Shown here: positions 11,373-33,451 of the stretch, piece after piece
How the letters are laid out: each line of letters begins with the position of its first letter
Position numbering within the stretch: position 1 is the stretch's first letter
DNA from: a bacterium
Lineage (GTDB): Bacteria > Gemmatimonadota > Gemmatimonadetes > Gemmatimonadales > Gemmatimonadaceae
Direction: 5' to 3'
Assembly (NCBI GenBank): GCA_021813725.1
Contig: JAKAJN010000009.1
Location: 1 to 45,292, forward strand
Length of the DNA stretch: 45,292 bases
Notes under the pieces: generated by a model
The model's input: the letters and a program-made list of their open reading frames with translations, nothing else
Told to the model about the DNA's origin: nothing
The model's database searches: none
Translations under genes and position numbers: made by a program

Positions 11373-11569
11373 GCGAGGAGGCGGAGCGGGTCCGGAGTGC
11401 GGAGGTTTGGTACGGCGGTATGAGGGAAGCGCAGAGCGATGCGGGATGAGGAAGAATCTACGAGCGACGGGCGTTGTTCGCCTCGGCGCACCTCGCCCAG
11501 CACTCGACTCGCCCCCCTTCACCAAGCCCCCGCACCCCGTACCCATCCCTCTCCCGCTACCTTTCCTCC

Positions 11570-15404: not shown

Positions 15405-15600
15405 TGGACGGTGACGCCTACCTCAGGACAGGGAATGTGGCATGTCGAACCTGCGAGCTGCGGCTCCACAGTAGGCAGGCGTCGATGAGGGCGTCAAGCG
15501 TCGGACGTTGTGGGGCTGCCGGTGGCTGGGTAGGTTGCCGGAGGCGCGGGCCGAGCAGCGCGCATCAGGCTGGGCGTGTCCCACAGGAACGGGAGCTGAC
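15405..15600. other. Divergent intergenic region
   Basis: About 195 bp between the divergent PglK-like gene and the GT2-type gene. A GGGAG Shine-Dalgarno at 15591-15595 serves the right-hand gene. No convincing promoter pair was identified by eye. Confidence 0.4.
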
Positions 15601-16752
15601 ATGGCGGAGGGACTCGTCCGACAATTCGTGGGACTGGCGAGGACCGCACGACGCACTACCCTGCTGGGGCCGTTGCTGGACGCCTGGCACGTGCGGGCCG
15701 TGCTGCGGGCCATCGACGACGACCCACGGGACGCTCGCGTGCTCGGTCCCGAGGAGTTGGCACCGTATCTGCGCCGCCTGACTCCGCTGGGCAGCATCTC
15801 GGACGATTTTGCCGGTCTCCCGTTCGATTGGGTGATCGTGCCCCACGGGGCGGTCGCAGCGCTTCCCGTCGCACTCGTACGAGGGCTCCGCAATGGGTAC
15901 CAGCGTGTACTCGAGAACCGGCGCTACCTGCTGCTCCGCTCGCGCCTTCCGGGATCCGGTGTCGCCAGCGACCCCGAGCTGCATGCACGCCTGGACGCCC
16001 TGCTTCCCCTCAGCAACCAGGGGGCGGAACCCCGTGCACTCACCGCTTCCGCGTGGCACGACCGCGCCATCCTTGTCACCACGTTCGAGCGGGCAACCGC
16101 CCTCGAGCGATCACTCCCGCAACTCTGCGGCCTTGGCGCGCCGGTGCTGGTGATGGATGACGGATCTCGCGAGGCCATGGCGGAGCGCAACAGGGCTGTG
16201 GCGCGTGGGTGCGGCGCCGAGTATCTACGGTTGCCCCGCAACCGGGGCATCAGCGCAGCGCTGACCGTGGGTCTCGAGTATCTGCTCGCCGACGCGCGGC
16301 TGCAGTGGATTTCGTGCGTGCAAGACGATGTGGACGTGCGTCCGGACACACTCTCCGTGCTTCAGGCCGTTGAGGATGCGGCAGTCCGGCCAGTACTCAC
16401 AGGCTACGACGCCGCGCTGCACGCCGCACTGGAGGAAACCGCGGTCGGCGGTGTGCGCGTGCGACTGAAGCGGGAAACCTCCGGGGTTCATCTCCACGCG
16501 CATCGGGACTATTGGCGCGCGGTGCTTCCCATTCCCACCGAGTACTTGGGGGCCCCCAAGCGGCGGTGGGAGGCCTCGCTCGAGGACTCGTGGATCACCG
16601 TGGGTGCGCCCAACGCGGCCGCGCGCCGCGGGATTCCTGTCGTGTGCGTCCCGGGCCTTGTTCGCACCTTTCTGTGGCACGCCGGCGACTCCACGTGGGG
16701 AAATCCCAACTCTCCGGAGCCGCTCCTCGCGCCGGATAACGCAGCGCCCTAG
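15601..16752 (+). CDS. GT2-type glycosyltransferase with an unassigned N-terminal domain
   Basis: A 383-residue protein. Residues about 154-340 look like a GT-A family-2 transferase: AILVTTFERATALERSL, the nucleotide-binding VLVMDDGSR (DDGS at 186-189), RLPRNRGISAALTVGLEYL, and a DXD-like VQDDVDVRPD (241-247). Residues 1-150 contain LPFDWVIVPHGAVAALPVAL and match nothing I recognise. ATG 15601 has a good Shine-Dalgarno (GGGAG, five bases upstream), so the open frame back to 15508 is not used. The gene is convergent with the two-domain gene on the minus strand, overlapping its 3' end by four bases. Sugar and acceptor are unknown. Confidence 0.78.
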   Translation: MAEGLVRQFVGLARTARRTTLLGPLLDAWHVRAVLRAIDDDPRDARVLGPEELAPYLRRLTPLGSISDDFAGLPFDWVIVPHGAVAALPVALVRGLRNGYQRVLENRRYLLLRSRLPGSGVASDPELHARLDALLPLSNQGAEPRALTASAWHDRAILVTTFERATALERSLPQLCGLGAPVLVMDDGSREAMAERNRAVARGCGAEYLRLPRNRGISAALTVGLEYLLADARLQWISCVQDDVDVRPDTLSVLQAVEDAAVRPVLTGYDAALHAALEETAVGGVRVRLKRETSGVHLHAHRDYWRAVLPIPTEYLGAPKRRWEASLEDSWITVGAPNAAARRGIPVVCVPGLVRTFLWHAGDSTWGNPNSPEPLLAPDNAAP

Positions 16753-18638: not shown

Positions 18639-19510
18639 CGGGCGCGGTTTCCGTTTGTCAACGCTTGGAGCCGCCGCGAGTATGCATCCGGGTAGACGCC
18701 CGCCTTGCGCATCCAGAGCAGAACAGTGCCGACCCACATTCGGAGTCGGACGAACACTGGACCCCGCCGGGGCGTCTGCTGCGTCCAGGAGAAGGACGCC
18801 TCCCGATCGGGAAGTGTCGTCGCGTGCGGCGTCGCGGCGTGCGGAGTGATCACCGGCGGCGTGACCGCGAACAGGCGCACGCCGGCGCTCGGCGCATAGC
18901 CGGTGAGCCAATCCGCGGGCATCCGCACTGGAGTGCCATGATCCAGGAGTTTGCGCGCGCCTTCGTGAGAGATCAGGTACGCCATGGCGCCCATGGCGAA
19001 CTCCACCACGCGCGCCACGCGGTGCCTCCGATGAACAGCCACTCCCCGCCAAGCGGTCGCCGCCCCCTCGTTCGGCCCGTGCCGCGCCGAGTGATGGGCG
19101 AATAACACCAACTCCCAGTTCCTGGGAAACCGCGGAAGCGCCCGCATCACCGCAAGGAGCTCGACCGACACGTCGACATCGTCCTCCAGGATGATCGCCA
19201 TCGGCAGTCCGCGCTCGCGAATCAGGCGGTAGCAGTGCTGATGACTCAAGGCACAGCCGATCTCGCCTGGCGTCAGCCGACGCCGCAATCCGGGACTGAC
19301 TTCGATGACCGTGCTGTCGCCCACGCGCTGTACGTCGTCCGGAGGGAGCGCAAGTCCGTCCACGGCGTCAATGAACTCCCACGGCAAGCCCAAGGTCGTC
19401 AGCTGACGCGCGATGTGCTCCCGCCGTTCACGCGACGTGGACAGGCTGATCACGAAAATCGCGGGGAACCCGCCTTCGGCGGTCATCGGGGGCATCGCGT
19501 TGGCAGCCAT
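18635..19510 (-). CDS. Glycosyltransferase family 25 (LPS/LOS type)
   Basis: About 291 residues. The family-25 pattern is clear: FPAIFVISLSTSRERREHI at the N-terminus, FIDAVDGLALP, LTPGEIGCALSHQHCYRLI and the metal-binding AIILEDDVDVS, then AYLISHEGARKLL. GT25 enzymes add galactose or glucose to lipo-oligosaccharide or to collagen. The start is uncertain: the frame is open to a GTG at 19603, but the domain begins soon after ATG 19510, and neither has a good Shine-Dalgarno. The gene overlaps the two-domain gene by four bases and follows the FkbM gene, so the three form one operon. Confidence 0.85.
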   Translation of the reverse strand: MAANAMPPMTAEGGFPAIFVISLSTSRERREHIARQLTTLGLPWEFIDAVDGLALPPDDVQRVGDSTVIEVSPGLRRRLTPGEIGCALSHQHCYRLIRERGLPMAIILEDDVDVSVELLAVMRALPRFPRNWELVLFAHHSARHGPNEGAATAWRGVAVHRRHRVARVVEFAMGAMAYLISHEGARKLLDHGTPVRMPADWLTGYAPSAGVRLFAVTPPVITPHAATPHATTLPDREASFSWTQQTPRRGPVFVRLRMWVGTVLLWMRKAGVYPDAYSRRLQALTNGNRAR

Positions 19511-19675
19511 CCCAGGGGACTGTGAACGTGCACGCACTCCTCGCCTCAGTAAGGTCGCGGCCGTGCGCACGTCGATCGGGGTGAGGTTGTCCGAGGCGAA
19601 CACCGCCCAATCATAACGATCCGGTCGCGAACATGGACCTGCCGCGTGACCCCGCCCGCCATTCGGCGAGTCGAT

Positions 19676-20620
19676 CTATATCGCCCGCCCGTGGTCGAAG
19701 GTCGGCGGAAGCAAGAGCACGTCAGTCTGCTGCGGCGTCAGGTCGAGCACCTCGCGCAGGCGCGAGATGTCCTGCGGCGCTGCCTCCAGTCCCTCCGCGA
19801 ACAGGCGCCGCGCCTCGATGAAGCGGTCAAACGACCGGCTGGCGGCCGTGTAGAACCGCTCGACTCCTCCATGCATCGTCAGCAACCCGGGCTCAAACTC
19901 GGCCCACAAGGGGACCCCCAGCGACCACAACGCCTCGCCCGTTTCGATCACGGCCGCTTCACTTCCCTGAACGTCAGCCCACACGAGCGCCACCTCTGAC
20001 GGATGGACGCCTGCGCCGGATATCGCGTCGCCGAGTGGCAGCGCGCGCACGTCGAAGCGCGAACCACGGATCGACGAGGCGGGTCGCCCGGGCATCTCCG
20101 ACACCACGCTCGCCGCGCCGATATCGGTGCCCAGAGTCATCGTCACCTGGCCCCCCGTAACCGCAACGGCCGCATCAATCAGGATACAGCGGTCCGCGAG
20201 CCCGTTCCGCTCGACATTCTCGCGCAGCAACGCAAACACTCCGGGCTCGGGTTCGATGGCGACGGCGCGACATCCAGCGGCGCGCACTATGGGAATACAC
20301 GTGGATCCGATGTTCGCCCCGACATCGACGATCACGTCCGCACCTCCAAGCGTCCGCCCGCGCGCCCGCAGCCACGCAACCAGCAGATCGATGGACGCCT
20401 GGGCGAATCCCCCTTCGACGAAGAGGCCAAAGCCGATATGTGAATCGCCGACGGGCGCTCGCCACGTCAGCCCGTTGCGCGAGAAAGTCGCCAGCTGCAC
20501 ACCAGCGGCCGCCATGGCCTGCCAAGCGAGGATGCGCCGGCGGCGCTCGCCTAGCAACGACAGCCCGCGGAGCAGTGCGGTACGGCGCAATGAGCGAAAC
20601 AATTCGACGGGCAAAGGCAT
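19676..20620 (-). CDS. FkbM-family methyltransferase
   Basis: A 314-residue SAM-dependent methyltransferase. The SAM-binding strand VIVDVGANIGSTCIPIV (about 95-111) and acidic loop VAIEPEPGVFALLREN are followed by the FkbM signature ALVWADVQGSEAAVIETG (about 231-248), in which the usual KxDxEG is WADVQG. Such enzymes O-methylate sugars in surface glycans and antibiotics. It is the first gene of the leftward operon with GT25 and two-domain copy 1, and starts 300 bp from a second, divergent FkbM gene. The two are not close copies. Confidence 0.87.
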   Translation of the reverse strand: MPLPVELFRSLRRTALLRGLSLLGERRRRILAWQAMAAAGVQLATFSRNGLTWRAPVGDSHIGFGLFVEGGFAQASIDLLVAWLRARGRTLGGADVIVDVGANIGSTCIPIVRAAGCRAVAIEPEPGVFALLRENVERNGLADRCILIDAAVAVTGGQVTMTLGTDIGAASVVSEMPGRPASSIRGSRFDVRALPLGDAISGAGVHPSEVALVWADVQGSEAAVIETGEALWSLGVPLWAEFEPGLLTMHGGVERFYTAASRSFDRFIEARRLFAEGLEAAPQDISRLREVLDLTPQQTDVLLLPPTFDHGRAI

Positions 20621-20920
20621 GCAGATTTGGATGCGCGACGGAAAGTCCGACGGGAACGGCGCCGAATGGGCGGGAGCCAGCGGATGCCTCTATAGCCGCA
20701 GAACGGGTGACGCGCATGGTGCGGCGACGTCGGCGGCAAGGTAGGGCGCGGCGTTTACGCGGGCAAGCCAGCCATGAAGGACCATCCCGCACGCCCTGCC
20801 AGTGGGTATGGGTCGCGCGTCGTTCGCGTGCCTCCCTTGCCCATCGCCCTTACGCCGCCTACGCTTCTCGCCGGTTCGGTGGACCGCCATTCGACGCCGC
20901 CCCTTCACCTGCACTCTCCG
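20621..20920. other. 300-bp divergent region between two FkbM genes
   Basis: No gene is supported here. The frame of the right-hand gene is open back to 20774, but the extra residues are Pro/Arg-rich and unlike a folded domain. Both neighbouring operons must start from this region; no sigma-70-like pair could be assigned with confidence. Confidence 0.4.
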
Positions 20921-21754
20921 ATGCAGCGTGCGCCGCACGACATCAAGTTGAGCGTCAAGGATTTCGTGCGACGTTGGGCACCCGCCCGATGGTGGCCGTG
21001 GCTCCAGATTGCCCGACTCGCCATGGAGCGCAGGACGTTTCCGCGTCGGTGGGTGCGCCACACGTACGAGGGTCATCCGTTGCGGGTGCTGCTCGGTGAT
21101 GTCGTTGGCGCCATGTGGTACGACCACGACTGGACATTGCCGGAGCTCCCCGTTCTGCTGACCGGCCGATTGAAGTCGGGATCGACGGTATTCAACATCG
21201 GTGCACACCAGGGCGTGGTCGCGATGGTTCTCGCACAAACGGTCGGCAGTTCGGGCAGGGTGGTGGCAGTGGAAGCGGACCGATTCCACGCGACGCTGGC
21301 CGAGGCGAATCGTGCCGCCAACGGCATTGAACAGCTGGTCGTCCGTCACGCGGCCGTCGGCGAGGTGGCCGGACCACTCAGGCACGACGCGACGACCGGC
21401 GCGATTCAGCTCGGCACCGGACCTGGGAATTCCGTGCCGGCAGTGACCATTGACGAACTGACGGCAGCCTACGGCGCGCCCGATGTGATTTACATGGATG
21501 TGGAAGGATACGAGGCGCTGGCGCTCCGTGGCGCGACCGCGACGCTCGCGGCGGGGACCGTGGACGTGCTCGTCGAAGTTCACGGACCATGGCTGCAGCG
21601 GTATGGAACGGCAATCGGCGATCTGCTGCAATCGTTTCCTGCCGCGACCTACCGCTCGCTCATCTTCGAAGAAGGCAGTACCCGTCCGCTGCCAACGGAT
21701 CTCGCCGCGCTCGCGCGCACACGATTTGTCCTCGTGAACTTCGGCCGCCGGTAA
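20921..21754 (+). CDS. FkbM-family methyltransferase
   Basis: A 277-residue SAM-dependent methyltransferase, monocistronic as far as can be seen. The SAM-binding motif is STVFNIGAHQGVVAMVLA near residue 87, followed by GRVVAVEADRFHATLAEAN; the FkbM signature is VIYMDVEGYEALALRG near 188-203, with the canonical DVEGYE. ATG 20921 is chosen over the open frame from 20774 because the upstream part has no domain character. It is convergent with the STELLO-like gene (81-bp gap containing a weak GCGCT/AGCGC hairpin). Probably methylates a sugar of the glycan made by its neighbours; position and sugar are unknown. Confidence 0.85.
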   Translation: MQRAPHDIKLSVKDFVRRWAPARWWPWLQIARLAMERRTFPRRWVRHTYEGHPLRVLLGDVVGAMWYDHDWTLPELPVLLTGRLKSGSTVFNIGAHQGVVAMVLAQTVGSSGRVVAVEADRFHATLAEANRAANGIEQLVVRHAAVGEVAGPLRHDATTGAIQLGTGPGNSVPAVTIDELTAAYGAPDVIYMDVEGYEALALRGATATLAAGTVDVLVEVHGPWLQRYGTAIGDLLQSFPAATYRSLIFEEGSTRPLPTDLAALARTRFVLVNFGRR

Positions 21755-21835
21755 GGAACGAGACCCCCGTCTTGCGCTCTCAAGCGCGGCTGCAGCAATG
21801 CCGCGTTCACATCGATGGATGTTCCACTCCGTCCG

Positions 21836-22831
21836 TCATCCGCACGACGCGAGATCGTCCAGCCACGCCTCCACCCGCGACGGTTCCCGCGCATCCACGA
21901 CGTTCACCCGCACCAACGCCTCGTAGGCGGACACGAGGTTGTCTCCCATCGTCGCGCCGCTCCGTACGGCAGCGACTACCGCATCTACGATGACTTCCGC
22001 GTGCAGGTAGAGCGGAATCTCGGCCTCGAAATCGCGGAGGAGATCGTGGGGATTCCGATCCTGCACGACTGTCGCGCTCGTGAAGCCGAGGCGAAAGCCT
22101 GCGGCCCAGAGGATCGGTTGCGCCACGAGACCACGCAGGATGTCGGTGACGCGCGACGTGACGCTCGCTGGAAAATAGAGCAGCGGAAAGCAATCGCGGC
22201 AGAAGGCGGTGGCCTGCGAGTTGAACGGGCAGAGCGTGCCGTCGCCCAGCACCAGCGGATCGCGCGCGTCGAAATGGCACTCACGGCCGTGTACGAGGCG
22301 ATAGACAGCATCCACATCCGGATCGCCGTCGGCCAAGGCCTGCCAGACCCCCACGCGCGCGCGAGTGCGCACAGCGTGATCGGAACTGGGAATCGTGCGT
22401 GGATCACTGATCGCGCGCAGTGGGAACCCACGCGGCCAGATGTGCGCATCGGTGAACCACCGGTAGACGTTCACCCAACCCGGCGACGAAGCAGTGGTGA
22501 ACCAGCTGCCCTCGAACGAGGGCACGTCCCAATCCGCCTTCGGCGCGTTGTCGTCGTCGGTGTCGTAGATGATCTCGGCGCCACGCCGGATCGCCCGGAG
22601 ATACCCGAGCATCTTGCGGCAGTAATGATTCCACGGCAGCAACGGCGCCAGCATGCCGCTCTGTCGCTGCGCCTCGACTCCGAGGTACTCCGCCGGAGGT
22701 AGCGACCACTCCGGCGGCGTCTTGCGGTCACCGACGACGATCAGGTGGTCCCCCACACGATCGGCAAAAGCGCGGACGGCCGGTGTGGGAGCGGAAATCG
22801 ATGTGATCACGACAAACGGCGACTGCGTCAT
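21836..22831 (-). CDS. STELLO/DUF288-like glycosyltransferase
   Basis: A 331-residue soluble protein. The opening FVVITSISAPTPAVRAFA, IVVGDRKTPPEW and EYLGVEAQ, then LPWNHYCRKMLGYLRAI and AEIIYDTDDDNAP (DDD at 92-94), match the DUF288 region of STELLO proteins, Golgi proteins that support cellulose synthesis in plants; bacterial relatives exist but their function is little known. WVNVYRWF and LCPFNSQATAF follow. ATG 22831 overlaps the preceding stop (ATGA); the longer open frame (to 23035) is a shadow of the upstream gene. Last gene of the leftward operon that starts at 28946. A sugar-transfer role is inferred from the DXD motif and context. Confidence 0.78.
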   Translation of the reverse strand: MTQSPFVVITSISAPTPAVRAFADRVGDHLIVVGDRKTPPEWSLPPAEYLGVEAQRQSGMLAPLLPWNHYCRKMLGYLRAIRRGAEIIYDTDDDNAPKADWDVPSFEGSWFTTASSPGWVNVYRWFTDAHIWPRGFPLRAISDPRTIPSSDHAVRTRARVGVWQALADGDPDVDAVYRLVHGRECHFDARDPLVLGDGTLCPFNSQATAFCRDCFPLLYFPASVTSRVTDILRGLVAQPILWAAGFRLGFTSATVVQDRNPHDLLRDFEAEIPLYLHAEVIVDAVVAAVRSGATMGDNLVSAYEALVRVNVVDAREPSRVEAWLDDLASCG

Positions 22832-24513
22832 GGGACGAGATCGGGAAGAAGGATCCGCGCGAGAGCAAGGTTCACGAACGTGGCTTCGGGATCTGCCCCA
22901 CCTTGACCCGGTGTCAGCGCCACGAAGGCGAAGCCGGCGGATACAAGGTATTGCTGGTGCCAGGGCGAGGAGTCGGCGGTCGGTTCCACCAAGCGGGAGA
23001 CACCCGCCGGGCATCGCAGAGTGAGAAACAGGCACTGATCCATCTGACCGTCAAGCGTGCGAAGAACGGTGAGTGGCTGCTCGTCGGCGATGCGCACCCA
23101 GTGCAGCACACGCTGGGCGAACCCATACTGGCGGAGAATCGCCGCGAGCGTCATGTGGCCCGCCGAGACCGTCCCCAGCACATATCCGGTGTACCAGGTG
23201 AAGCCGCGCGTTTGGACGCGATCCACGCCAATGGATATCACCGGCTTGCGCAGCGTGACACCGTCCTGAATGCGTCCCAGCGCCTCGCCGCGTCCGGTGC
23301 CCACGTCCACAAAGACAACTTGCGGGTCGTTGAGCGTGTCCAGCGCGTAACCGATAAGGTCAGTCGCGTCTGGACCGTCCGGCGGTAACTCCGTCAGCGC
23401 CCGACGGTGCGTTCGCCAAGCGCTCCACAGCGCTGCCTCGTTGGGGCTGCGGAGCCGGCGCTGGCAGCGCTGTGCCTGCACGCGTGCGAGGTAGCGCCAC
23501 TGCCGGATCCACCGCCCCAGGGCGAATACCCTTGACGTGCGGACCAACCCCAGTCGCGCGCGCAACGCGTGCGTCCGTAGCCGCAGTTCAGCGATCTTGC
23601 CCGTGGGCATCGGCGCCGAACCAGGGCTTCGCTTGCGCCACCGCTTCGCGCGACTGCTGGCGGGATCGTCGGAGTAGAACTCATGCTGCAGCGGCATTGC
23701 CAGCAGTTCGCGCTTGCGCATCCAGATAGGGTGGTCCAACAGATAGCGTGATGCCATCTCCTCCGCCGTCACGCGATATGAGGCCGCCTTTCGCCGAGGG
23801 ACTCCCATCCCCGGATGCGGGAGCTGGCTCCATTCCGGCTGGCGCAGGTAGCGGGCCGCATCCCGCGGATCGCGCAGCGATTCCAGGTAGAGCGTCTCGG
23901 GCTTGGTCAGCAATCGCTCCGTATAGCCCCGGAGGCTGTACGGGTTCAACGCCCGCACCCGGTTGGTCTGCATCACGTGTCCGGGGTACAAGTCGGCTGC
24001 CGTGCTGCACACGATGCTCCCCGAGTAGTCCGCGCACGCCTCGTCGAGCAGATCGTAGTACGGCAGGAGCGCGGGCAATGCCTCTCGGTGGAAGGCATTC
24101 AGGACCGGATCGAAGAAGCGCAGCGTCTGCGTTTCCTGCGCGAGGTCCCACATGCCCGAAAGGTGCCACGCGTAGGCCGGCGTCCCCACCGCGGGCTCGT
24201 ACGCGAGGAGAAACTCCTCGAACGCACGCCACGGGCTCAGCCGGCGCGCGAGGCTCTCGGCGCCGCGTGCCGTGAACTCGAGGCGGACGTCCGCATCGCC
24301 AAATATGAAGTACAGCCAGTCGCCCCCGACGACCTCGCGGAGCAGGCGGTTTCGCCCCTGCGACCACGAGCTCGAGGGGTAGAACACCGACCGCGGATCG
24401 TTCGACCGCGCGCGGTACGAGAGGAAACGCACGTCGCTGTCGGGCCCCGCGGCATCTCTGAGGTGGTCCGGCAGATCCTGCTCGACTTGAAAGAGGTAGA
24501 GGAACCTCCGCAT
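22828..24513 (-). CDS. Two-domain GT-A-like / FkbM protein, copy 2 (degenerate methyltransferase)
   Basis: A 561-residue paralogue of 16749-18638. The N-terminal domain is well conserved: MRRFLYLFQVEQDLP, YPSSSWSQGRNRLL (45-58), FGDADVR with DAD at 73-75, and FFDPVLNAFHREALPALLPY. The C-terminal domain keeps the SAM-like strand VVFVDVGTGRGE (near 396) and LRQYGFAQRVLHWV, but the stretch between GYV and LRQYG is 12 residues against 66 in copy 1. The KIDAQGSDLDAF motif has become RIADEQPLTVL, losing the key Asp and Gly. The methyltransferase is therefore probably inactive. ATG 24513 overlaps the GT2 stop by one base; its stop overlaps the STELLO-like start by four. Confidence 0.77.
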   Translation of the reverse strand: MRRFLYLFQVEQDLPDHLRDAAGPDSDVRFLSYRARSNDPRSVFYPSSSWSQGRNRLLREVVGGDWLYFIFGDADVRLEFTARGAESLARRLSPWRAFEEFLLAYEPAVGTPAYAWHLSGMWDLAQETQTLRFFDPVLNAFHREALPALLPYYDLLDEACADYSGSIVCSTAADLYPGHVMQTNRVRALNPYSLRGYTERLLTKPETLYLESLRDPRDAARYLRQPEWSQLPHPGMGVPRRKAASYRVTAEEMASRYLLDHPIWMRKRELLAMPLQHEFYSDDPASSRAKRWRKRSPGSAPMPTGKIAELRLRTHALRARLGLVRTSRVFALGRWIRQWRYLARVQAQRCQRRLRSPNEAALWSAWRTHRRALTELPPDGPDATDLIGYALDTLNDPQVVFVDVGTGRGEALGRIQDGVTLRKPVISIGVDRVQTRGFTWYTGYVLGTVSAGHMTLAAILRQYGFAQRVLHWVRIADEQPLTVLRTLDGQMDQCLFLTLRCPAGVSRLVEPTADSSPWHQQYLVSAGFAFVALTPGQGGADPEATFVNLALARILLPDLVP

Positions 24514-25385
24514 CACCGCCGCCCCAAGGCAGCGAGTCCCCGCTGCAAAAGCCAAGCGCCATGCACGTAACTCCGCCGAGCCCACTCCGGCCACCAAGCG
24601 GTGGCTGGCACCGGCCGTGGCCAATCAGCCAACGCCACTCGATCGCGCATCACGGCGGGATGTGATCCGTGGAACAGGCGCAGGTGGCGCGTGTCGCCGA
24701 AAGCCGCGGAGAGATCCGCTTCCGTTGGGACCTCCTGGTCTCCACGCCACGCGTCGCCGCGAAAGAGCCGGGCAAGGTTCCGCTGCTTGAGCAGCATCTG
24801 CGCCGGCGGCCGCACCCTGCCATAGTGAAAGATGTGCTCTGCGAGATCACGCCGCCTGGGTTTCAGCCAGACACCGTCCGCCCGGCGCATGAACGCGCAC
24901 GCATCGCCGACCGACTCGATGCCCGTTCCCGTCCGGACGATGCGGGTCGCCCTGGGGTACCACTGCCGTGGGTCATCCTTGTAGGTCTGGTACGATCCAT
25001 AGAAGTGGTAGTAGCGGAGACTCAACGCCTCGACTTGCCCGGACCGGTGACGCGCCATCGCTGCGCGCAGAGCGGGAAGCTCCGCTTCGTGCAGCACTTC
25101 ATCGGCCTGCAGGTAAACCGCCCACTCGCCGTCGCAGCGCGCCAGCGCCTTGTTGGTCTCCTCCGAGAGGGTCTGGCCATCGCGTTTGGTCAGGTCCCAC
25201 GTGCTCCGGAACGCAACGATCTTCGGATCAGCGAGTGCCTGCACCGTCTCCCAGGTTCCGTCGTCCGCGTCGCCCACGTTGACCACCAGCTCGTCCACGA
25301 GCGGGAGGAGCGAGCGGAGCGACTCGGCGATCGGATAACCCAATGCGACCGCCTGTCGGGCAATGGTAAATCCGGAGATCCGCAT
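24513..25385 (-). CDS. Glycosyltransferase family 2 (GT-A)
   Basis: A 290-residue transferase: MRISGFTIARQAVALGYP, VDELVVNVGDADDGTWE and the acceptor/metal region WAVYLQADEVLHEAELPAL, typical of a GT2 subfamily found in surface-polysaccharide clusters. ATG 25385 is preferred because GGAGG lies five bases upstream; an earlier in-frame ATG (25418) overlaps the LptG-like stop as ATGA and is the alternative. A C-terminal WPEWARRSYVHGAWLLQRGL segment could be amphipathic. It sits between the LptG-like gene and two-domain copy 2 in the leftward operon. Donor and acceptor are unknown. Confidence 0.85.
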   Translation of the reverse strand: MRISGFTIARQAVALGYPIAESLRSLLPLVDELVVNVGDADDGTWETVQALADPKIVAFRSTWDLTKRDGQTLSEETNKALARCDGEWAVYLQADEVLHEAELPALRAAMARHRSGQVEALSLRYYHFYGSYQTYKDDPRQWYPRATRIVRTGTGIESVGDACAFMRRADGVWLKPRRRDLAEHIFHYGRVRPPAQMLLKQRNLARLFRGDAWRGDQEVPTEADLSAAFGDTRHLRLFHGSHPAVMRDRVALADWPRPVPATAWWPEWARRSYVHGAWLLQRGLAALGRR

Positions 25386-25414
25386 GGCATCCTCCGACGC
25401 GGGCATCCGCTTGA

Positions 25415-26497
25415 TCATGTGCGCGCACGGCGAAGCAGGAGCACTCCGCCTCCGCCAAAGAGGATCGCGGGAAACGAGGCGGCGATGCCCGCGGGCAGAA
25501 TCCCCGCCGCGCCAAGCCCTTCGGTCGTCCGAAGCAGCGCGAGATAGAAGATCGTGCACACCAGGGCCAAGGCGACTCCCAACTGTCCTTCGCCGCGTCC
25601 GACAACGGTGCTCAATGGGGCCGCAAAGAGAATGATGGCCAGTATCGTCAGGGGAATGGCGATGCGCTCCCACTGCTTCGTCCGCGGGACACCCGTCGGC
25701 GCACCAGAGCGCTCCATCCGCTCGGCGAGCCGCCCCAACTCCCCGAAGGTCATCTCGTCCAGCGCGAGCGCGGGCGCATCGAGGAGATCCATCGGACGTT
25801 CCGTGAGCGATGGGTGAACGAGCCGCGTGAAGCTGACCGACACCTGCTCCCCGTTGCCGAGAAGGCTCCAGAGGTTGCCGTCTCGCAACTCCCAGCCGCG
25901 TCCCTCGATATAACGGGCCTCCCTTGCCACGACGTACTGGATTGGGCGTGATGCGGTGGGAGTCGCGGAGCGAAGTGCGATCCCGTACATCCGCGTGCGC
26001 GCGCCCACCTCCAACCGCTGGACGCTCAAAATTTCGCCGGCATCGGTGAGGTAGGCGAAGGCGTCCCGCTCTGCTCGCCCGCCGCGGCGTTCACCGGGCG
26101 CCAAGGATGCGTCGCGCCATATGCGGGGGGCCGCCTCGAGCAGAACGACGTCAACGAGCGCCGCAACTGCTCCGCAGAGCAACAGTGGAACAAAGAGGCG
26201 TTGGACGCGAATCCCGGACGCCAGCATCGCGTGAATCTCGCCGTGCCGCATCAGGGGCTGGAGCGTAAACAGCGTTGCCACCAGCGCGGCGATGGGAAGA
26301 CTCCACGTGAGGTACATCGGAAACTGGCTGGCGTACCCCCGCAACATGTCGCCCGCGCTCCTCCCGAGGGCCAGATTGGCGTCGAGGCGCTCCGTGAGGT
26401 CGGCGAGGACGAACAACAGGGGAGCCGTCAGCGCAGTGAGCGCGAAGATCCGCACGAACGCCCCGAGGAGATACCGGTCGACCAGACGCATTCTCAT
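25415..26497 (-). CDS. LptF/LptG-family permease (second of pair)
   Basis: A 360-residue YjgP/YjgQ-type membrane protein: N-terminal helices (VDRYLLGAFVRIFALTAL and YLTWSLPIAALVATLFTLQPL), the family motif HGEIHAMLASGIRVQRL, a periplasmic beta-jellyroll (about 105-260) and three C-terminal helices. These proteins form the inner-membrane part of the LPS exporter with LptB. It overlaps the preceding paralogue by four bases (ATGA). The pair is embedded among glycosyltransferase genes instead of standing alone. Which of the two is LptF and which LptG cannot be settled here; LptB, LptC and LptA are not in the window. Confidence 0.85.
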   Translation of the reverse strand: MRMRLVDRYLLGAFVRIFALTALTAPLLFVLADLTERLDANLALGRSAGDMLRGYASQFPMYLTWSLPIAALVATLFTLQPLMRHGEIHAMLASGIRVQRLFVPLLLCGAVAALVDVVLLEAAPRIWRDASLAPGERRGGRAERDAFAYLTDAGEILSVQRLEVGARTRMYGIALRSATPTASRPIQYVVAREARYIEGRGWELRDGNLWSLLGNGEQVSVSFTRLVHPSLTERPMDLLDAPALALDEMTFGELGRLAERMERSGAPTGVPRTKQWERIAIPLTILAIILFAAPLSTVVGRGEGQLGVALALVCTIFYLALLRTTEGLGAAGILPAGIAASFPAILFGGGGVLLLRRART

Positions 26498-27786
26498 GGC
26501 GTCTCCCGCGAGCGCGCCGCAGCGTGCCCGGGGGCGCGGCGGCGGCGCAGCATACCGTCACCCTGCGTCCCTCGGACAAGGTCCGCGGAGGTTCGCGCGT
26601 TCGCCACGGCGCCGCCGATATCACGCAGCAGCGGGAGAGTGAGCAGCAGGAGCACACCGACCGTTGCCCAACTGCCCAGAAGCGGGTCGATCCATCCGGC
26701 ATCGGTGAGTCGGTCTCCCCAGATGATCCCGACGCGGAAGAAGAGGAGAACCGCCACGGACAGGCCGATTACCGCTCCAATCCCGCCGTAGGCGAACCGG
26801 ATGCCGAGCGGTGCGGCCAGCAGGACAAGCACGACACAGGCAAAGGCTGTGGCAAGGCGCCGGTGAATCTCGCCCAAGCTTCGGATGACGACGGAACGGC
26901 GGGCTTGTGCCGCCGCGCTTGAGCGTTCACGGCACCCCCACCTTGCTGGGTCCACTCCGTCGCATTCCGCGTTTCGAATCCGCTGGCGAAGCGAGGCCAT
27001 GGAAAGCTCTCGCTCAGCGCGCTCTTCAACGCGCGCCCCCCGCTCCACGCGGGCGGCGAGCCCGCGAAATCGGACGAGATAGCCTCGGAACTCCGAAGTC
27101 ACGAGGGTTCCGGGACGGTCAAGGTAGGGACTCGCCAACGTGCCGTGCGTGAGCCGCAGGGCGAGATCACGGCGATTGGGCATCACCGCGACTGTCGCGC
27201 TTTCGGCGGTAACGTAGCGCGGGCGACTCGGCCGACTGAGGTCAGCAATCGTCACGCCACGCAGGACATTGCTCCGCGCATCGATTGACTGCACCACGAC
27301 GTATCGCACCGCGCCGTCGCCGGTGCGCACGGCATTCACCGCCCCCGCGCGGAGGCGCAGCGTGGGACTCATTCGGGCCACATCCTCAAGCCGATCCTGG
27401 AAGCGCGCGTTCGCCGCCGACAGGATCCGATCATTGAAGCCGACCATGAGCAGCGACACGACGAATCCGGTGACAAGCAGCGGAGCGATCAGCCGCCCCG
27501 GATGGACGCCACCGGCCGCCATCGCCACCAGTTCGCCGCTCTCCGAAAGGTCGGCAAACACATACTGGGTGGCCGCAAACAGCGCCATGGGAACAGCAAG
27601 CGTCACCACATGCGGGAGGGAGAGGAGCATGAGCTCCAGGATGACTCCCCCCCCGACACCCTTCCCAGCCAGTTCTTGAAACCGTTGCGCGACGGCCGTG
27701 AGGAACAGCAACCCCGTCACCGCGACGAACGCAAAGGCGAACGGACCGGCGTAGGCTCTCAGCAGGTAGCGGGTGATGGTCGTCAC
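26494..27786 (-). CDS. LptF/LptG-family permease (first of pair)
   Basis: A 430-residue YjgP/YjgQ-type permease: [38 protein letters not shown], the motif SESGELVAMAAGGVHPGRL (about residues 81-99), a periplasmic jellyroll and C-terminal helices (CVVLVLLAAPLGIRF, VIGLSVAVLLFFRVGIIWG). It is longer than a usual LptF or LptG by about 65 residues, mainly an Arg/Glu-rich insertion around residues 245-300 (containing the cysteines of NAECDGVDPARWGCRE) and a basic C-terminal tail. It overlaps the GT4 stop upstream and its partner downstream by four bases each, so the operon is translationally coupled through these genes. Confidence 0.85.
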   Translation of the reverse strand: MTTITRYLLRAYAGPFAFAFVAVTGLLFLTAVAQRFQELAGKGVGGGVILELMLLSLPHVVTLAVPMALFAATQYVFADLSESGELVAMAAGGVHPGRLIAPLLVTGFVVSLLMVGFNDRILSAANARFQDRLEDVARMSPTLRLRAGAVNAVRTGDGAVRYVVVQSIDARSNVLRGVTIADLSRPSRPRYVTAESATVAVMPNRRDLALRLTHGTLASPYLDRPGTLVTSEFRGYLVRFRGLAARVERGARVEERAERELSMASLRQRIRNAECDGVDPARWGCRERSSAAAQARRSVVIRSLGEIHRRLATAFACVVLVLLAAPLGIRFAYGGIGAVIGLSVAVLLFFRVGIIWGDRLTDAGWIDPLLGSWATVGVLLLLTLPLLRDIGGAVANARTSADLVRGTQGDGMLRRRRAPGHAAARSRETP

Positions 27787-28946
27787 GGGCGTCCGATCGC
27801 CACTTCTTCCACGAGGTTACGTACCGTCGTTTCGAACCGTGTCCGCGTGAAGAGGGCGCCGCGTCCCCGAAGGTACGCCCGCAGTCGGTCTTGCTCCTCG
27901 ACATCACTTAGTACGTTGCCGATGGTGGCGGTCGCATCTGCCTCCGTGGCGAAACGGAGGGCTCGCTCAGGCCCGACGATGTCCACCTGGCCGCCGCCGT
28001 CGGGAACGAACACGATGGCGCCGCCGAGGAGTGCCTCCGCCGGCGCGATGCCAAAGTGCTCCTCGCTCATGCCGTGGATCGCGTAGCGATTCGCGTGGAT
28101 CAGCCGGACCAACTCGGTCCTTGAGACGTCGAAGTGCAGGTGCACCCAAGCCCCCGCATCGTGCGCCATCCGCTCAACCCGGCGGACGTACCACGCGGGA
28201 CCCCGGCTCCCGATGAGATGAAGCTCGACATGCGGGTGGACCCGCTGGACCTGCGCGAGAATGCGGATCACGCGCTCCAGTTCCTTCTCCGGCGCAATGC
28301 GTCCGATACAGACGAAGCCATCCCGGCGTTGATGCCACGGCAGCGGTGACGCCGCCATCTCGACTGGCGGCGGCACGACCTGTGGGCGAGCCGCCTCGCC
28401 GTACAACTGCACCATCCGCTCCGCGATCCACGTCGAGTTGGTGAGCGTCATCGCCTCGACCACCCGCTCCGAACGGAAGTCCGCAAGCCAGTCACAGAGC
28501 GCATAGTAGGCGGCCAGTCCACCGGCCCACGCGTGATACCACCGAAGGTCGGCCGTCGGGCGAGGCCGCAGGCGCGAGGGGTAATGGATGTACTGGAGCG
28601 TCTTCGCCCCGAAATCCGTCTCGTTGTGACCGCAGATCACCACGTCGAAATCCCCGACGAGCCGCTTCGCCCGCCGAAACAGGAGCGACGACTTGAGGAG
28701 AACGACCGGCAACGGGAACGCCTCAAGCATCCGCAGGCTGGCGGGCATAGGAATCCAGGTCGCATCGTCCGGCCGGATCGTGGTACCGTAGTATGCATTC
28801 ACGGCTTCCAGCTCCACCGGACGCCAACTGCACACGGTGATGTCATGGAGGCCAGCCAGGGCCTGAAGCATCCAGGCGGCCACGGCGTTGCCGCCCCCAG
28901 GCGGCTGGAGGGATGGCTGGACCACGAGAACGCGGAGGCGCGGCAT
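27783..28946 (-). CDS. Glycosyltransferase family 4 (GT-B)
   Basis: A 387-residue GT-B retaining transferase. The N-terminal glycine loop is [13 protein letters not shown]; the C-terminal nucleotide-sugar domain has [18 protein letters not shown] and the catalytic-site [15 protein letters not shown], in which Glu residues bind the donor. The segment [12 protein letters not shown] and overall pattern recall ALG11-type alpha-1,2-mannosyltransferases, but GT4 specificity cannot be read from sequence. First gene of the leftward operon that continues through LptF/G, GT2, two-domain copy 2 and the STELLO-like gene. There is no Shine-Dalgarno, and the promoter candidate lies very close to the ATG. 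Confidence 0.85.
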
Positions 28947-29117: not shown

Positions 29118-30050
29118 ATGGACAAGCACGCCAAGATCTACGTCGCCGGGCATCGCGGGCTTGTCGGAAGCGCGATCGTTCGCAACCTGACGCTGCGGGG
29201 ATACCACAGCCTCATCGTGCGCACGCACGGGGAGCTGGACCTGGAGCGCCAGTCCGACGTGCGGACCTTCTTTGAATCCGAGCGACCGGAGTACGTCTTC
29301 CTCGCCGCTGCGAAGGTGGGCGGCATTCATGCGAACACGGCCTACCCGGCGGAGTTCATCTATAACAATCTGCTCATCGCCGTCAACGTCATAGAAGCCG
29401 CCTATCGCTGCGGCGTGCGGAAACTGCTGTTCCTTGGATCCTCCTGCATCTACCCCAAGGACGCCCCGCAGCCGATTCGCGAGGAGTACCTGCTCACTGG
29501 CGTGCTCGAGCCGACCAATGCACCCTATGCCGTGGCGAAGATCGCGGGCATCAAGCTCTGCCAGAGCTACAATCGCCAGTTCGGCACCGACTTCATCTCG
29601 GTCATGCCGACGAACCTCTACGGCGTCAACGACACCTACCATCTCGAGAACAGCCACGTGCTGCCGGCGCTAATTCACCGTTTCCACGACGCAAAGACGC
29701 AGGGAAGCGCGCAGGTTGCGGCGTGGGGAACGGGGACGCCCCGGCGCGAGTTTCTGTACGCCGATGACTGCGCGGACGCTTGCGTCTTCCTCATGCAGGA
29801 GTACTCGGGAAACGACATCATCAACATCGGCACCGGCGAGGACCTGACGATCCGGGAGTTGACTGAACTGGTGGCGCAGACGGTGGGGTATCACGGCGAA
29901 ATCGTCTGGGATTCGTCGCAGCCCGACGGTATGCGCCGCAAGCTGCTCGACGTCTCACGAATCCATGCCCTCGGATGGCGACATCGGTACAGCTTGGAGG
30001 ACGGGCTTCGCCTCGCCTACGAGGACTTCCTGCGCCGGTTCGGCATGTGA
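29118..30050 (+). CDS. fcl: GDP-L-fucose synthase
   Basis: A 310-residue SDR enzyme converting GDP-4-keto-6-deoxymannose to GDP-L-fucose with NADPH. The nucleotide motif is [12 protein letters not shown] (G11, G14, G17); [15 protein letters not shown] (S108, C110) and PYAVAKIAG (Y137, K141) match the catalytic residues of E. coli Fcl, and [13 protein letters not shown] and [13 protein letters not shown] complete the pattern. GGGGCAAGAG before ATG 29118 is a modest ribosome site. The frame is open to 28533, but that is the shadow of the GT4 gene. Its usual partner GDP-mannose 4,6-dehydratase is not in the window. It overlaps the next gene by one base (TGATG). Confidence 0.93.
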
Positions 30051-31105
30051 TGCTCGCAACGGCCGGCGCGGCCACGTTCACGGCGCTCGCCGTCACATGG
30101 GTCGCCATTCCATTCCTGATCCCACGAGCGGAAAGATGGCGGCTCGTTGACCACCCGGGCGGACGCAAGACGCACGCGCGCAGCACGCCGGTCGTGGGGA
30201 GCGTGGCGATGGCGGCCGGCGTTCTGGCGGCCATGCTGCTCGTCCGCACCATGACCACCGGCGAGCGTCTCACCGCGAATGCCACGATCGCATGGCCGAT
30301 CGCCGCCGCCATTCTTGCCGGCGCCGTACTCCTACTCGTGGTCGGCATCGTCGACGACCAGCGGGAGCTCGGCGCCTCCATCAAGCTGCTGGCCCAAATC
30401 GCCGCGGCATTGCCGCTGGTGCAGGTGCACGACTTTTCCATCTTCCACGCCTGGCTCCCTTCCTGGACCGCATCGGCCGCCGAGTTGCTATGGATTCTGG
30501 CCGTAGTGAACGCGTTCAACATGCTGGACGGCATCGACGGGCTCATGGGGAGCGTGGCGCTGCTTTGCGCCCTCGCGATCGCCGTCCTGGCCTGGAGTTG
30601 GAAGGTGTATGACGCCTGCTTCCTGCTCGCCGCCCTTGTCGGCGCGCTCCTCGGGTTCCTGCGCTGGAATCTCCCGCCCGCTCGCACCTTCGCCGGGGAC
30701 GGCGGATCGTTGATGGTGGGGTACCTCGTCGCCGCCATCTCGATTCGCATCACCGGTCCCGATGCGGCGCTCGACCTCACGGGGCGGCCCTACGCGATCA
30801 TCGCGCTGCTACTCATCCTCGCCATCCCATTCTACGACCTCGTGAGCGTCGTGTGGCTGCGCGCCATCGAACGACGCGGGCTGTTCGGTGGCGACACCAG
30901 CCACCTCGCCCATCGCTTGGTGCGACGTGGATTGTCCCCACGCCGGACGCTCGTGTTCATCGTGGGGTGCACCCTGTTGACGGCGCTCGCCGGACTGTTG
31001 CTGGCCCGCGTGGGGCGGGCCGCGGCGATGTCGGTGGTGGCCCAGTGCGCCGTGGTGATCGGGCTCATCGCGTTGATGGAGGCGAAGACCCGTCCCGCCG
31101 CCTGA
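30050..31105 (+). CDS. Undecaprenyl-phosphate sugar-1-phosphate transferase (WecA/TagO/ALG7 type)
   Basis: A 351-residue polytopic protein (about ten to eleven helices) of the WecA/MraY superfamily, which moves a HexNAc-1-phosphate, often GlcNAc, onto undecaprenyl phosphate. Conserved cytoplasmic motifs are present: WRLVDHPGGRKTHARSTP, VGIVDDQRELGASIK (DDxxE), NAFNMLDGIDGL and FAGDGGSLMVGYL; the last is usually FxGDxGS. The fifth, usually HxHHR-like, reads GGDTSHLAHRL. The start overlaps the fcl stop. The gene is convergent, three bases apart, with the ALG1-like gene. As an initiating enzyme it should start glycan assembly for this region. Confidence 0.87.
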   Translation: MLATAGAATFTALAVTWVAIPFLIPRAERWRLVDHPGGRKTHARSTPVVGSVAMAAGVLAAMLLVRTMTTGERLTANATIAWPIAAAILAGAVLLLVVGIVDDQRELGASIKLLAQIAAALPLVQVHDFSIFHAWLPSWTASAAELLWILAVVNAFNMLDGIDGLMGSVALLCALAIAVLAWSWKVYDACFLLAALVGALLGFLRWNLPPARTFAGDGGSLMVGYLVAAISIRITGPDAALDLTGRPYAIIALLLILAIPFYDLVSVVWLRAIERRGLFGGDTSHLAHRLVRRGLSPRRTLVFIVGCTLLTALAGLLLARVGRAAAMSVVAQCAVVIGLIALMEAKTRPAA

Positions 31106-31108
31106 TCG

Positions 31109-32299
31109 CTATGCCGTTGGAGGCAGGAGCGACGGCATCACGGACGACCATTGCTCGTCCCAGGAGACCGGACGGCGGGCGCGGGCCTGTGCGGTGAGCT
31201 GCGCAAGGAAGTCCGAGCCGTCATCGGACCGGGTGAGTGCGACAAAGAGGTGCCCGGCGAGTTCCTCCGCGGTTGCGAAACTGGCGATTCCGCTTCCGCG
31301 TGGTGCGATCTCCTCGTGCGGAGACCCATCGTTCAGCGCGAGCACGGGGACGCCAACCGTCTGCAACTCCACGATCTTCATTGGCAGATCGAGTCCGGAT
31401 GACGATCGGTGGACACAGAGTCCGAGGTGGCTCCCGGCCAGCAGGTGCGGATAGTCGTGCGGCGCAACGTTCGGCGTCTCCACCCACAGTGCAGCGCCCC
31501 CGATTGCGCGAAGCGTCGTCCCCCACTTGGCTCGCAGGGGACCGTCACCGCTCAACAGGAGCCGGACCCCCCGACGGTTTCCCGGTGTGGCCTCCATGCG
31601 ACGTACCAAGAGGCCGAGCGCGTCGGACAAGAGCGAGAGGTCATCGTCGCGAGTCCATCCCATGGGGGCCACAACGACCAAGGGATCATCGGGCAAGTCG
31701 TCGCGTGCCCGCGGAAATGCGCGCACCGCCGAAGGCCCGTCGTGAAGCACGGCGACGTCCCCGAGACCCCAACCCTGCAGATGTCGCGCCAGACGATGAG
31801 AGACGGCGACGTGCGCGTCGGCTCGCCGGCCGAAAAAGCGCTCGGCCCATCGCGTGAATCGGACGAGCGGATGCGACGCGCCGAAGCGGAGGGCGAGTAG
31901 TGTCCAACCGAGATTGTGCCAATCCACAATCAACTTCGCGCCGCGCAGGCGAGCGGCGATGATTGCCACGGGAAAGGTTGGAAGTGCAGGCGGCGACTGA
32001 AGGAGAATCAGGTCGGGCCGAGGCGTGGCGCTCAACAGCACTCGGGTGAGCCCCCACCCCAGTCGGAGCCCGCGCAGTCCGGTGGCGAGACTCCCCGCCA
32101 GTCCGGCACCTCCCCCGGCTTCTCCCAGCGCAAGCGCGTGCACGTGCAGTCGCGCCTCGCCGGCGAGGCCGGTCGGGAGAGCGGTGCGCATGCCCCCCAC
32201 CAGGTGCACGTCGTGACCGGCCCGAAGCAACGACGCCGCGTGGGCCAGCAGACGCGGGCTTCGGCCGAGATCCCCGAGGACCAGTACGAGGGCTCGCAT
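31109..32299 (-). CDS. ALG1-like (GT33-type) beta-mannosyltransferase
   Basis: A 396-residue GT-B enzyme resembling eukaryotic ALG1, which adds the first mannose to dolichol-PP-chitobiose. Visible ALG1-type motifs: VLVLGDLGRSPRLLAHAASL (1-24), PDLILLQSPPALPT (95-108), GAKLIVDWHNLGWTLLAL (120-137), MGWTRDDDLSLLSDAL (about 222-237) and GLDLPMKIVELQTVGVPVLA near the end. It starts nine bases after the MurG-like stop, with an AGGT ribosome site overlapping that stop, so the two are one operon. In bacteria the acceptor would be an undecaprenyl-linked sugar; this and the mannose specificity are inference from the family. Confidence 0.8.
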   Translation of the reverse strand: MRALVLVLGDLGRSPRLLAHAASLLRAGHDVHLVGGMRTALPTGLAGEARLHVHALALGEAGGGAGLAGSLATGLRGLRLGWGLTRVLLSATPRPDLILLQSPPALPTFPVAIIAARLRGAKLIVDWHNLGWTLLALRFGASHPLVRFTRWAERFFGRRADAHVAVSHRLARHLQGWGLGDVAVLHDGPSAVRAFPRARDDLPDDPLVVVAPMGWTRDDDLSLLSDALGLLVRRMEATPGNRRGVRLLLSGDGPLRAKWGTTLRAIGGAALWVETPNVAPHDYPHLLAGSHLGLCVHRSSSGLDLPMKIVELQTVGVPVLALNDGSPHEEIAPRGSGIASFATAEELAGHLFVALTRSDDGSDFLAQLTAQARARRPVSWDEQWSSVMPSLLPPTA

Positions 32300-32308
32300 G
32301 GTGGTGAC

Positions 32309-33451
32309 CTATGCTGTAAGCATCGCGAATCGGCACCAGTCGGCCATGCGTGAGGCCGCGTCCGGTCGGTGCCACGAACGTGCCGCTTCACCCATGCGCG
32401 TGAGCTCGGAACCGTCAGACGCGAGCGAGAGAATGGCGTCCGATAGCGACGTGCCGTTGAGTTCGTTCGGGAGAATGGAACGGGAGCATCCGGCTTCCTC
32501 CCATGCCTTGGCATTGGCCAACTGATGATCGCCCGCCGCCGGAAGCGGGACGAGGATCGCTGGACGACCAGCGGCCGCGAGCTCGGCGAGCGTCGCGGCA
32601 CCCGCGCGCGTGATGACCAGCGACGCACGATGGTACGGTTCCGCCAGGTCCGCGAAGAATGGCTCCACCCGTGCGTCGACACCCGCGGCACCATACTGCT
32701 GACGGAGTTCCGGCACCTCTTGGGGTGACGCTTGGTGAACCACAGACAAGGCTTGGGCAAGAGACCCAAGGCGTGGCAGCGCGTCACGCATGGCGCGATC
32801 GAGTTCCGAGGCGCCGGCGCTGCCTCCCAGAATCAGCAGGTGAAAGCGACCAGGCTGCGGTATGGCTTGCGGTACGTGCGCACGAATCGCCCGACGCACC
32901 GGCCAGCCGCTGAGGAACTCTCGCCCCGGAAACGATCCCAGCGTCTGGGGCCAGGCCACCGCCGCTGCTTGCACGAGCCGCCCGAGCATGCGGTTGGCGA
33001 GTCCGACATCCACGTTTGCTTCGAAGAGGAGCGTGGGAATTCCCTGCAGGGCAGCGAGCGCTACGAGCGGTCCTGACGTGTGCGCGCCTGTGCCCACCAC
33101 GAGGTCCGGACGCAACGTGCGCAGCAATCGATCGCTCCTGAGCATGCCCATCGGTAGTCTCAGCAACCCATTCAGCCACCGCAGGACGCCCCCTCCCCTG
33201 AGCGGGTGGACCTCCAACGGAATGAACGCGCCGTTGTTGGCTGCCACCAGCCGCTCCGCCACACCGCCGGCCGGTCCGCAGAACAGTGTCTGCACCGGCT
33301 GCGCCGATTCGTGCAGCGCCTCCGCCACCGCCAGAGCGGGGGTCACGTGCCCTCCGGTGCTCCCCGTTGCAAAGAGCACCAGCGGCGGGCCGAACGCGCG
33401 CCTTTCATTCGCGCGCTTCCCTCTCGGCGATGCAGCGGCAGGCGGGTACAC
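32309..33451 (-). CDS. MurG-like UDP-HexNAc glycosyltransferase
   Basis: About 380 residues of MurG fold. N-terminal motif FATGSTGGHVTPALAVAEAL, acceptor-side GTGAHTSGPLVALAA and IPTLLFEANVDVGLANRML, GWPVRR, and the donor side LILGGSAGASELD and TRAGAATLAELAAAG, then PLPAAGDHQLANA. Compared with the usual MurG pattern, GGYxSGP reads GAHTSGP and HEQN reads FEAN, so it is a diverged homologue. No mur or fts genes flank it; it sits in an operon with an M28 peptidase gene (11 bp upstream) and the ALG1-like gene. The start is unsure: GTG 33451 is the first usable codon, with GTG 33379 as alternative. True MurG remains possible. Confidence 0.8.
   Translation of the reverse strand: MYPPAAASPRGKRANERRAFGPPLVLFATGSTGGHVTPALAVAEALHESAQPVQTLFCGPAGGVAERLVAANNGAFIPLEVHPLRGGGVLRWLNGLLRLPMGMLRSDRLLRTLRPDLVVGTGAHTSGPLVALAALQGIPTLLFEANVDVGLANRMLGRLVQAAAVAWPQTLGSFPGREFLSGWPVRRAIRAHVPQAIPQPGRFHLLILGGSAGASELDRAMRDALPRLGSLAQALSVVHQASPQEVPELRQQYGAAGVDARVEPFFADLAEPYHRASLVITRAGAATLAELAAAGRPAILVPLPAAGDHQLANAKAWEEAGCSRSILPNELNGTSLSDAILSLASDGSELTRMGEAARSWHRPDAASRMADWCRFAMLTA

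Follow-up and report, generated by a model that had tools for sequence, protein, structure and literature searches.

Introduction

ALG1, an enzyme of glycosyltransferase (GT) family GT33, adds the first mannose of the eukaryotic protein-linked sugar chain and carries an N-terminal extension that serves as its membrane anchor. In bacteria, the pgl cluster of Campylobacter jejuni, which uses a PglC-type starter enzyme as well as GalNAc and bacillosamine, combines GTs for a lipid-linked oligosaccharide with a PglK-type ATP-binding cassette (ABC) transporter and an oligosaccharyltransferase (OST) of the STT3 family. Here we describe related genes in a 45,292-nucleotide stretch of DNA from a Gemmatimonadaceae bacterium (contig JAKAJN010000009.1, positions 1 to 45,292, assembly GCA_021813725.1), which as a whole is called the window. 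An earlier note on this DNA proposed that its contiguous WecA-, ALG1- and MurG-like genes resemble the first steps of eukaryotic N-glycan assembly. The comparisons below support this interpretation, with the sugars predicted, and we estimate a probability of about 0.55 that the genes represent, in a bacterium, the cytoplasmic half of the eukaryotic ALG-type lipid-linked oligosaccharide pathway. The presence of oligosaccharide GTs, of a PglK-type ABC transporter and, in relatives of the locus, of an STT3-family OST is shared with the pgl cluster, while the WecA-type starter, the MurG-like and ALG1 enzymes and, in relatives, an ALG2-like enzyme are different, and no OST was found in the genome of the window.

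Lombard (2016; PMC4973528) was unable to identify the nearest prokaryotic relatives of Alg1 and noted that this may point to a eukaryotic innovation. The available part of the report by Meyer et al. (2022; PMC8993221) treats Alg13/14. Like archaeal Agl24, ALG13-14 and EpsE-EpsF in that report, the loci described here contain a MurG-superfamily enzyme proposed to form the disaccharide of two N-acetylglucosamine (GlcNAc) residues, and the GGH loop is conserved. Agl24 is about 16% identical to the bacterial and eukaryotic enzymes (PMC8993221), whereas the MurG-like proteins considered here are close MurG relatives, with the window protein scoring 231 bits against TIGR01133 (MurG; cut-off 250). 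A search of the open-licence literature, to which bioRxiv and most subscription papers did not belong, found no earlier report of bacterial ALG1 clusters.

The ALG1-like protein and its adjoining genes

The contiguity of the three genes was confirmed. The gene of the WecA-type enzyme (30050-31105, plus strand) is separated by 3 bases from that of the ALG1-like protein (31109-32299, minus strand), which is followed after 9 bases by the MurG-like gene (32309-33451, minus strand). The three do not form one operon, because the WecA-type gene converges on the ALG1-like gene; the MurG-like and ALG1-like genes are co-directional. Their products are 351 residues (from the start given in the earlier note; the frame is open from 29975), 396 residues and 380 residues long, respectively. 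The WecA-type protein matched PF00953 (Glycos_transf_4) with 122.8 bits against a cut-off of 27, but TIGR02380 (WecA) with only 118.7 bits against 326; hence, its proposed placement in the WecA/ALG7 superfamily stood, while the narrower one in WecA did not. Pfam, NCBIfam and the gene context suggest that it is a sugar-phosphate transferase and the predicted starter enzyme. The MurG-like protein, which has the GT28 N and C domains of Pfam, is a predicted adder of the second GlcNAc.

The motifs DWHNLGWTLLAL and GWTRDDDLSLL, previously noticed in the ALG1-like protein, were found there, and VLGDxGxSPR, DWHN and SSSGLDLPMK are common to this protein and ALG1. All eukaryotic ALG1, ALG2 and ALG11 sequences used in this study were typed in without a database source; the human ALG1 sequence agreed at all three positions (Q50, S258 and A360; 3/3) for which PMC7616334 prints the wild-type residue of a patient variant. 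In BLAST the window protein was 30% identical to human ALG1 (176 bits, 433 columns) and 29% identical to yeast ALG1 (173 bits, 420 columns), and the two eukaryotic proteins were 35% identical to each other. Alignment with MAFFT gave 34% for human and 32% for yeast, and a larger alignment 30% and 29%. In an alignment of 25 near-complete ALG1 sequences, of which 23 are bacterial and 2 eukaryotic, 48 columns were invariant or deviated in a single row, including those of GDxGRSPR, DWHN and GLDLPMK. At E 1e-5, human and yeast ALG1 gave one match per locus in 33/33 ALG1 loci, which was always the ALG1 gene and never another local GT gene, and this exclusiveness indicates that the likeness to ALG1 is not due to chance.

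When ALG2-like, ALG11-like and generic GT4 proteins were included in the trees, the ALG1 proteins of bacteria and eukaryotes formed one clade (support 100 in a quick tree, 100/100 in two further trees), and the window protein did not fall into an unrelated GT4 family. Of the profile comparison suggested in the earlier note, the Pfam part returned generic GT4-type domains only, and NCBIfam gave no match; homology and trees, however, place the protein with ALG1. The AlphaFold model (pLDDT 87, pTM 0.85) has a GT-B fold. A fold search with this model was non-discriminating, as it returned many GT-B enzymes, including BshA, PimA, PglA and MurG, and PDB sequence searches with the protein and a profile found nothing related. 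As judged from alignments, trees and the model, the window protein is a member of the ALG1 (GT33) family, and it is a predicted beta-1,4-mannosyltransferase. It resembles eukaryotic ALG1 in homology across the catalytic protein, in the motifs, in its clade and in the predicted fold, while it differs in being bacterial, in starting at the first motif and in lacking the N-terminal extension.

Distribution and neighborhoods of bacterial ALG1 genes

Contigs of 84,980 prokaryote species were scanned with two peptide patterns, which yielded 24 bacterial ALG1 loci, all from metagenome-assembled genomes, in Acidobacteria, Vicinamibacterales, Rokubacteria, Deltaproteobacteria, Proteobacteria, Myxococcota and Opitutaceae bins, as well as in one Gemmatimonadaceae, one Cyanobacteria and one Acidimicrobiia bin. 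The scan was incomplete, since among 347 genomes of the Acidobacteriota side ALG1 was found in 14, of which 8 were new. In the phylum of the window, ALG1 was present only in its own genome (1/298 at E 1e-10, own genome included). The best bacterial relative, that of locus L008, was 44% identical to human ALG1. Separately, a Gemmatimonadaceae bin (L009) and an Acidobacteria bin (L012) have sister ALG1, ALG2-like and MurG-like proteins, which could reflect either interphylum transfer or a binning error.

The neighbors of ALG1 were compared in 25 loci (24 relatives and the window) by clustering and tblastn mapping, using bit thresholds that we set; contig ends truncate some of the loci, and the window, being the longest stretch, has an advantage in the count for the ABC transporter. 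MurG-like genes were found in 16 loci, WecA genes in 14, GT4 genes in 19, ABC transporter genes in 17, ALG2-like genes in 11 and OST genes in 10, with an eleventh OST (L023) slightly below the threshold. The MurG-like gene directly adjoins ALG1 in 15/25 loci, the window counted. Locus L016 contains seven consecutive genes (2939-12617) in the order ABC, GT4, WecA, MurG-like, ALG1, OST, ALG2-like, and the order is the same in L010; both are Rokubacteria bins. Over the parts that align, identity between the ALG2-like proteins and human ALG2 ranges from 31 to 49%, the 49% value belonging to a 263-residue piece from L008 that is cut by a contig end. In L025 (8276-11425) an ALG2-like enzyme and one like the GT4 enzyme of the window share one open frame, an apparent fusion.

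The earlier note had pointed to a nearby GT4 gene and a PglK-like flippase gene, and both have relatives near ALG1 elsewhere. The GT4 genes of the 19 loci are related to the window gene at 27783-28946 (minus strand; tblastn mapping and tree), with 28-55% identity per aligned piece, and the ABC genes of the 17 loci to the one at 13611-15404 (minus strand), which encodes a PglK/MsbA-type transporter and possible flippase. The name PglK, on the other hand, did not hold, as the transporter scored 254.6 bits against a cut-off of 1000 for NF050066, with 264.5 for a HepA model; the PglK structure 5c73 matched its residues 73-572 with 235 bits, and ABCB transporters scored higher. The window GT4 protein grouped in a tree with a typed-in part of human ALG11, with long branches.

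These data show that bacterial ALG1-family genes occur in clusters resembling the early eukaryotic N-glycan pathway, some of them with an OST. A chance neighborhood was ruled out for the relatives, because bins from several phyla repeatedly show these partners; the window itself is like them in gene set and unlike them in order.

The proposed pathway and the points against it

In the pathway that we favor, the WecA-type enzyme would transfer GlcNAc-1-phosphate onto undecaprenyl phosphate, the extra MurG-like enzyme would add a second GlcNAc from UDP-GlcNAc, and the GT33/ALG1 enzyme mannose from GDP-mannose. The ALG11-like GT4 enzyme, in relatives together with an ALG2-like GT, may extend the chain, which the PglK-like transporter would flip, and in relatives with an adjoining STT3/AglB-type OST the chain could be passed onto protein asparagine. 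Every sugar, linkage and acceptor in this scheme is a prediction, while family membership, neighborhood, conservation and the presence or absence of genes were observed.

Several observations weigh against this pathway. The eukaryotic sequences used in the comparisons have no database source; after SSSGLDLPMK the window ALG1 reads ELQT where the human protein has DMFG, its end branch is longer than that of any other ALG1 in one tree, and it splits first in the larger tree (87/93). The gene order of the window is unlike that of the relatives, with ALG1 between the WecA-type and MurG-like genes and the ABC gene 15.7 kb away from ALG1, and its MurG-like gene stands head to tail with ALG1, while the two are divergent in the 14 other loci in which they adjoin. 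This order lowers our confidence in the proposed pathway and raises it for a spare peptidoglycan MurG, considered below together with the position of the window MurG-like protein outside the clade of its counterparts, which is a further point of this kind. In addition, no ALG2 ortholog was found in the genome of the window, the best match being a generic GT4 protein with 52.7 bits.

Further points of this kind come from the variety of the loci, only one kind of which fits the chitobiose reading directly. This is kind A, with ALG1 and a MurG-like gene, in part also with OST and ALG2-like genes; the window is a kind A locus without the latter two. Kind B loci (L013-15, L017-19 and L029) have ALG1, WecA and GT4 genes and no MurG-like gene, and each of their genomes contains a single full-length MurG and, away from the locus, an OST. 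Kind C loci, from Acidobacteriota (L122-L125), have no partner genes beside ALG1 in the examined stretch; the neighbors scanned in L122, L124 and L125 are unrelated, L124 is at a contig end, and L099 is on a 3.3-kb contig. The ALG1 proteins of L122-L125 and L099 group together (100/99), and their genomes gave no OST. As a detail of sequence, GD of VLGDLGRSPR reads AD in the ALG1 proteins of L124 and L125.

OSTs and the fate of the sugar chain

The earlier note saw no OST, and none was found in the whole genome of the window (G000) by Pfam or a tailored profile, which again weighs against the proposed pathway. Among the genomes of the relatives, PF02516 (STT3) was over the cut-off in 23/24 (weakest 31 bits), and G301, the genome of the Gemmatimonadaceae bin with locus L009, gave no such match. 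In the phylum of the window STT3 was over the cut-off in 2/298 genomes, its own not among them. On the Acidobacteriota side STT3 was over the cut-off in 8/14 ALG1 genomes versus 25/333 others (Fisher 5.8e-6), but in just 2/8 of the newly found ALG1 genomes (Fisher p 0.13); this last count speaks against the pathway as well, and the link between ALG1 and STT3 thus depends to a large extent on loci from the first scan. The tailored OST profile was positive in 2/10 genomes (G556 and G641) and negative in G000, G301, G409, G436, G479, G547, G555 and G586; in G641 the contig with ALG1 spans 6.47 Mb.

The large proteins encoded beside ALG1 in relatives were named STT3/PglB/AglB by Pfam. Against TIGR04154 (cut-off 450) those of L016 (498 bits) and L121 (522 bits) were over the cut-off, while those of L040 (422), L047 (399) and L007, L008 and L027 (24 to 49) were below. 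The OST of L040 scored 204 bits against AglB (3waj), the WWDYG stretch of L027 matched a solved Stt3-related protein (E 0.0003), and WWDxG was present in 14/16 aligned OSTs, being absent from L020 and L025. Locus L006 has two tandem STT3-family OST genes (1189-3972 and 4044-6833), both with WWDYG.

Because no OST was found in the window's own genome, the chain is probably delivered there to a surface polysaccharide or a different acceptor, or else the OST lies in the missing part of the genome. The first of these possibilities leads to the strongest rival of the proposed pathway, in which the module here makes a surface polysaccharide or a lipopolysaccharide side chain, with a beta-mannose placed on a lipid-linked sugar and no protein glycosylated. 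This would agree with the lack of an OST match in both G000 and G301 and with the glycan genes at 13.6 to 25.7 kb of the window (an ABC transporter, GT2-, GT25- and STELLO-like proteins and FkbM methyltransferases), in a region whose composition is atypical from 15 to 27.5 kb. A similar enzyme set, however, is found near OSTs in 10/25 loci, and a genome that is 94.5% complete may miss one gene. We regard this alternative as quite possible, though on the doubtful side.

Origin of eukaryotic ALG1 and ALG2

The bacterial clusters with ALG1, ALG2-like, MurG-like and STT3 genes supply prokaryotic relatives and make the origin of ALG1 testable; their ALG1 proteins are homologues of a family for which sequence searches gave no solved structure. 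They also lead to the prediction that N-glycosylation of proteins with a GlcNAc2-mannose core like the eukaryotic one takes place in some bacteria. Tentatively, eukaryotic ALG1 and ALG2 might derive from a bacterial N-glycosylation cluster of WecA, MurG-like, ALG1, ALG2-like, ALG11-like, flippase and STT3 genes, which we consider somewhat unlikely. If it were true, the cytosolic part of N-glycan synthesis in eukaryotes, including the Man3GlcNAc2 core, would have been assembled in bacteria and then taken over, and ALG1 would not be a eukaryotic invention. A lateral passage of the bacterial ALG1 and ALG2-like genes from eukaryotes, followed by spread among bacteria, appears about as unlikely to us. 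The patchy distribution (1/298 genomes in the window's phylum and 14/347 on the Acidobacteriota side) is consistent with it, as are approximately unbiased (AU) tests that did not reject monophyly of bacterial ALG1 apart from eukaryotes (0.165 and 0.291). In the best trees, in contrast, the eukaryotic ALG1 proteins branch from within the bacterial ones, with L008, L006 and L027 (95/80 with L008; 81/21 with more rows), 0/200 bootstrap trees separate bacterial from eukaryotic ALG1, and eukaryotic ALG2 nests beside L008 and L006 (98/96), two loci that likewise lie close to eukaryotic ALG1. Each family is represented in these trees by only two eukaryotic sequences, the sequences differ in composition and the branches are long, so that the trees demonstrate neither direction of transfer.

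For the window itself, ALG1 and a second MurG are confined, among its kin, to its own genome, and so both genes look acquired.

The MurG-like protein

The MurG-like protein of the window is the second copy in its genome rather than the sole one. The other MurG, at 38003-39073 of contig C128, lies in the dcw-like context for which the earlier note had suggested a search; the gene directly after it is one that we take, from a motif, to be murC, and the same contig bears the genome's only other PF00953 protein, presumably MraY. At E 1e-15, two MurG copies were found in the genome of the window, one in 56 and none in 3 of its 59 kin.

In a tree of 39 MurG proteins the 14 ALG1-neighboring ones of other loci formed a clade (100/99) apart from other MurG, and the GxTxGH histidine, the donor-loop glutamate and the HQ..NA residues, which presumably serve UDP-GlcNAc, are kept in 14/14 rows of this clade. 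The window copy grouped instead with another MurG protein, L076 (91/88), and so lay outside this clade in the best tree, but its union with the clade was not rejected (AU p 0.116). These proteins share with canonical MurG the GT28 N and C domains and the donor-site residues, and differ from it in that the extra copy is outside a dcw-like context and that the 14 copies form a separate clade.

Alternatively, the MurG-like gene could be a spare copy of the peptidoglycan MurG, with ALG1 acting without it on the WecA product. The grouping with another MurG, the seven loci that have ALG1, WecA and GT4 without a MurG-like gene, and the orientation relative to ALG1 would all fit this explanation. The gene is, however, only 9 bases from ALG1 and in the same direction, in none of the 59 kin genomes was a second MurG found, the pair adjoins in 15/25 loci, and the AU test leaves room for the union with the specialized clade. 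We consider a spare MurG unlikely. That the ALG1-like protein is a generic GT4 enzyme with chance ALG1-like motifs is very improbable and was ruled out, since set against its generic GT4-type Pfam matches are the full-length homology, the exclusive matches and the one clade with ALG1.

Other genes and composition of the window

An associated, non-core gene (29136-30050, plus strand) encodes a GDP-L-fucose synthase-like enzyme (NCBIfam 495.6 bits, cut-off 500), whose substrate is a product of GDP-mannose.

A mis-binned contig was considered by comparing tetranucleotides in 5-kb pieces. The pieces at 2.5-15 and 27.5-42.5 kb of the window resemble 46 pieces of its own genome. Atypical pieces lie at 15-27.5 kb (89th-98th percentile) and at the two ends, with 1-5 kb in the 98th and 40-45 kb in the 100th percentile; the test is weak, as 3/5 foreign loci score no worse than these atypical pieces. 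A viral and a plasmid origin were rejected, since a scan of viral contigs gave no relative and a plasmid search no match. The GT2, GT25, FkbM methyltransferase and STELLO-like glycan genes at 15001-27500 lie within a compositionally atypical stretch. Among the proteins of this region, those encoded at 16749-19052 and 22828-24624 have the stretch FLYLFQVE.DLP in common and are likely paralogs.

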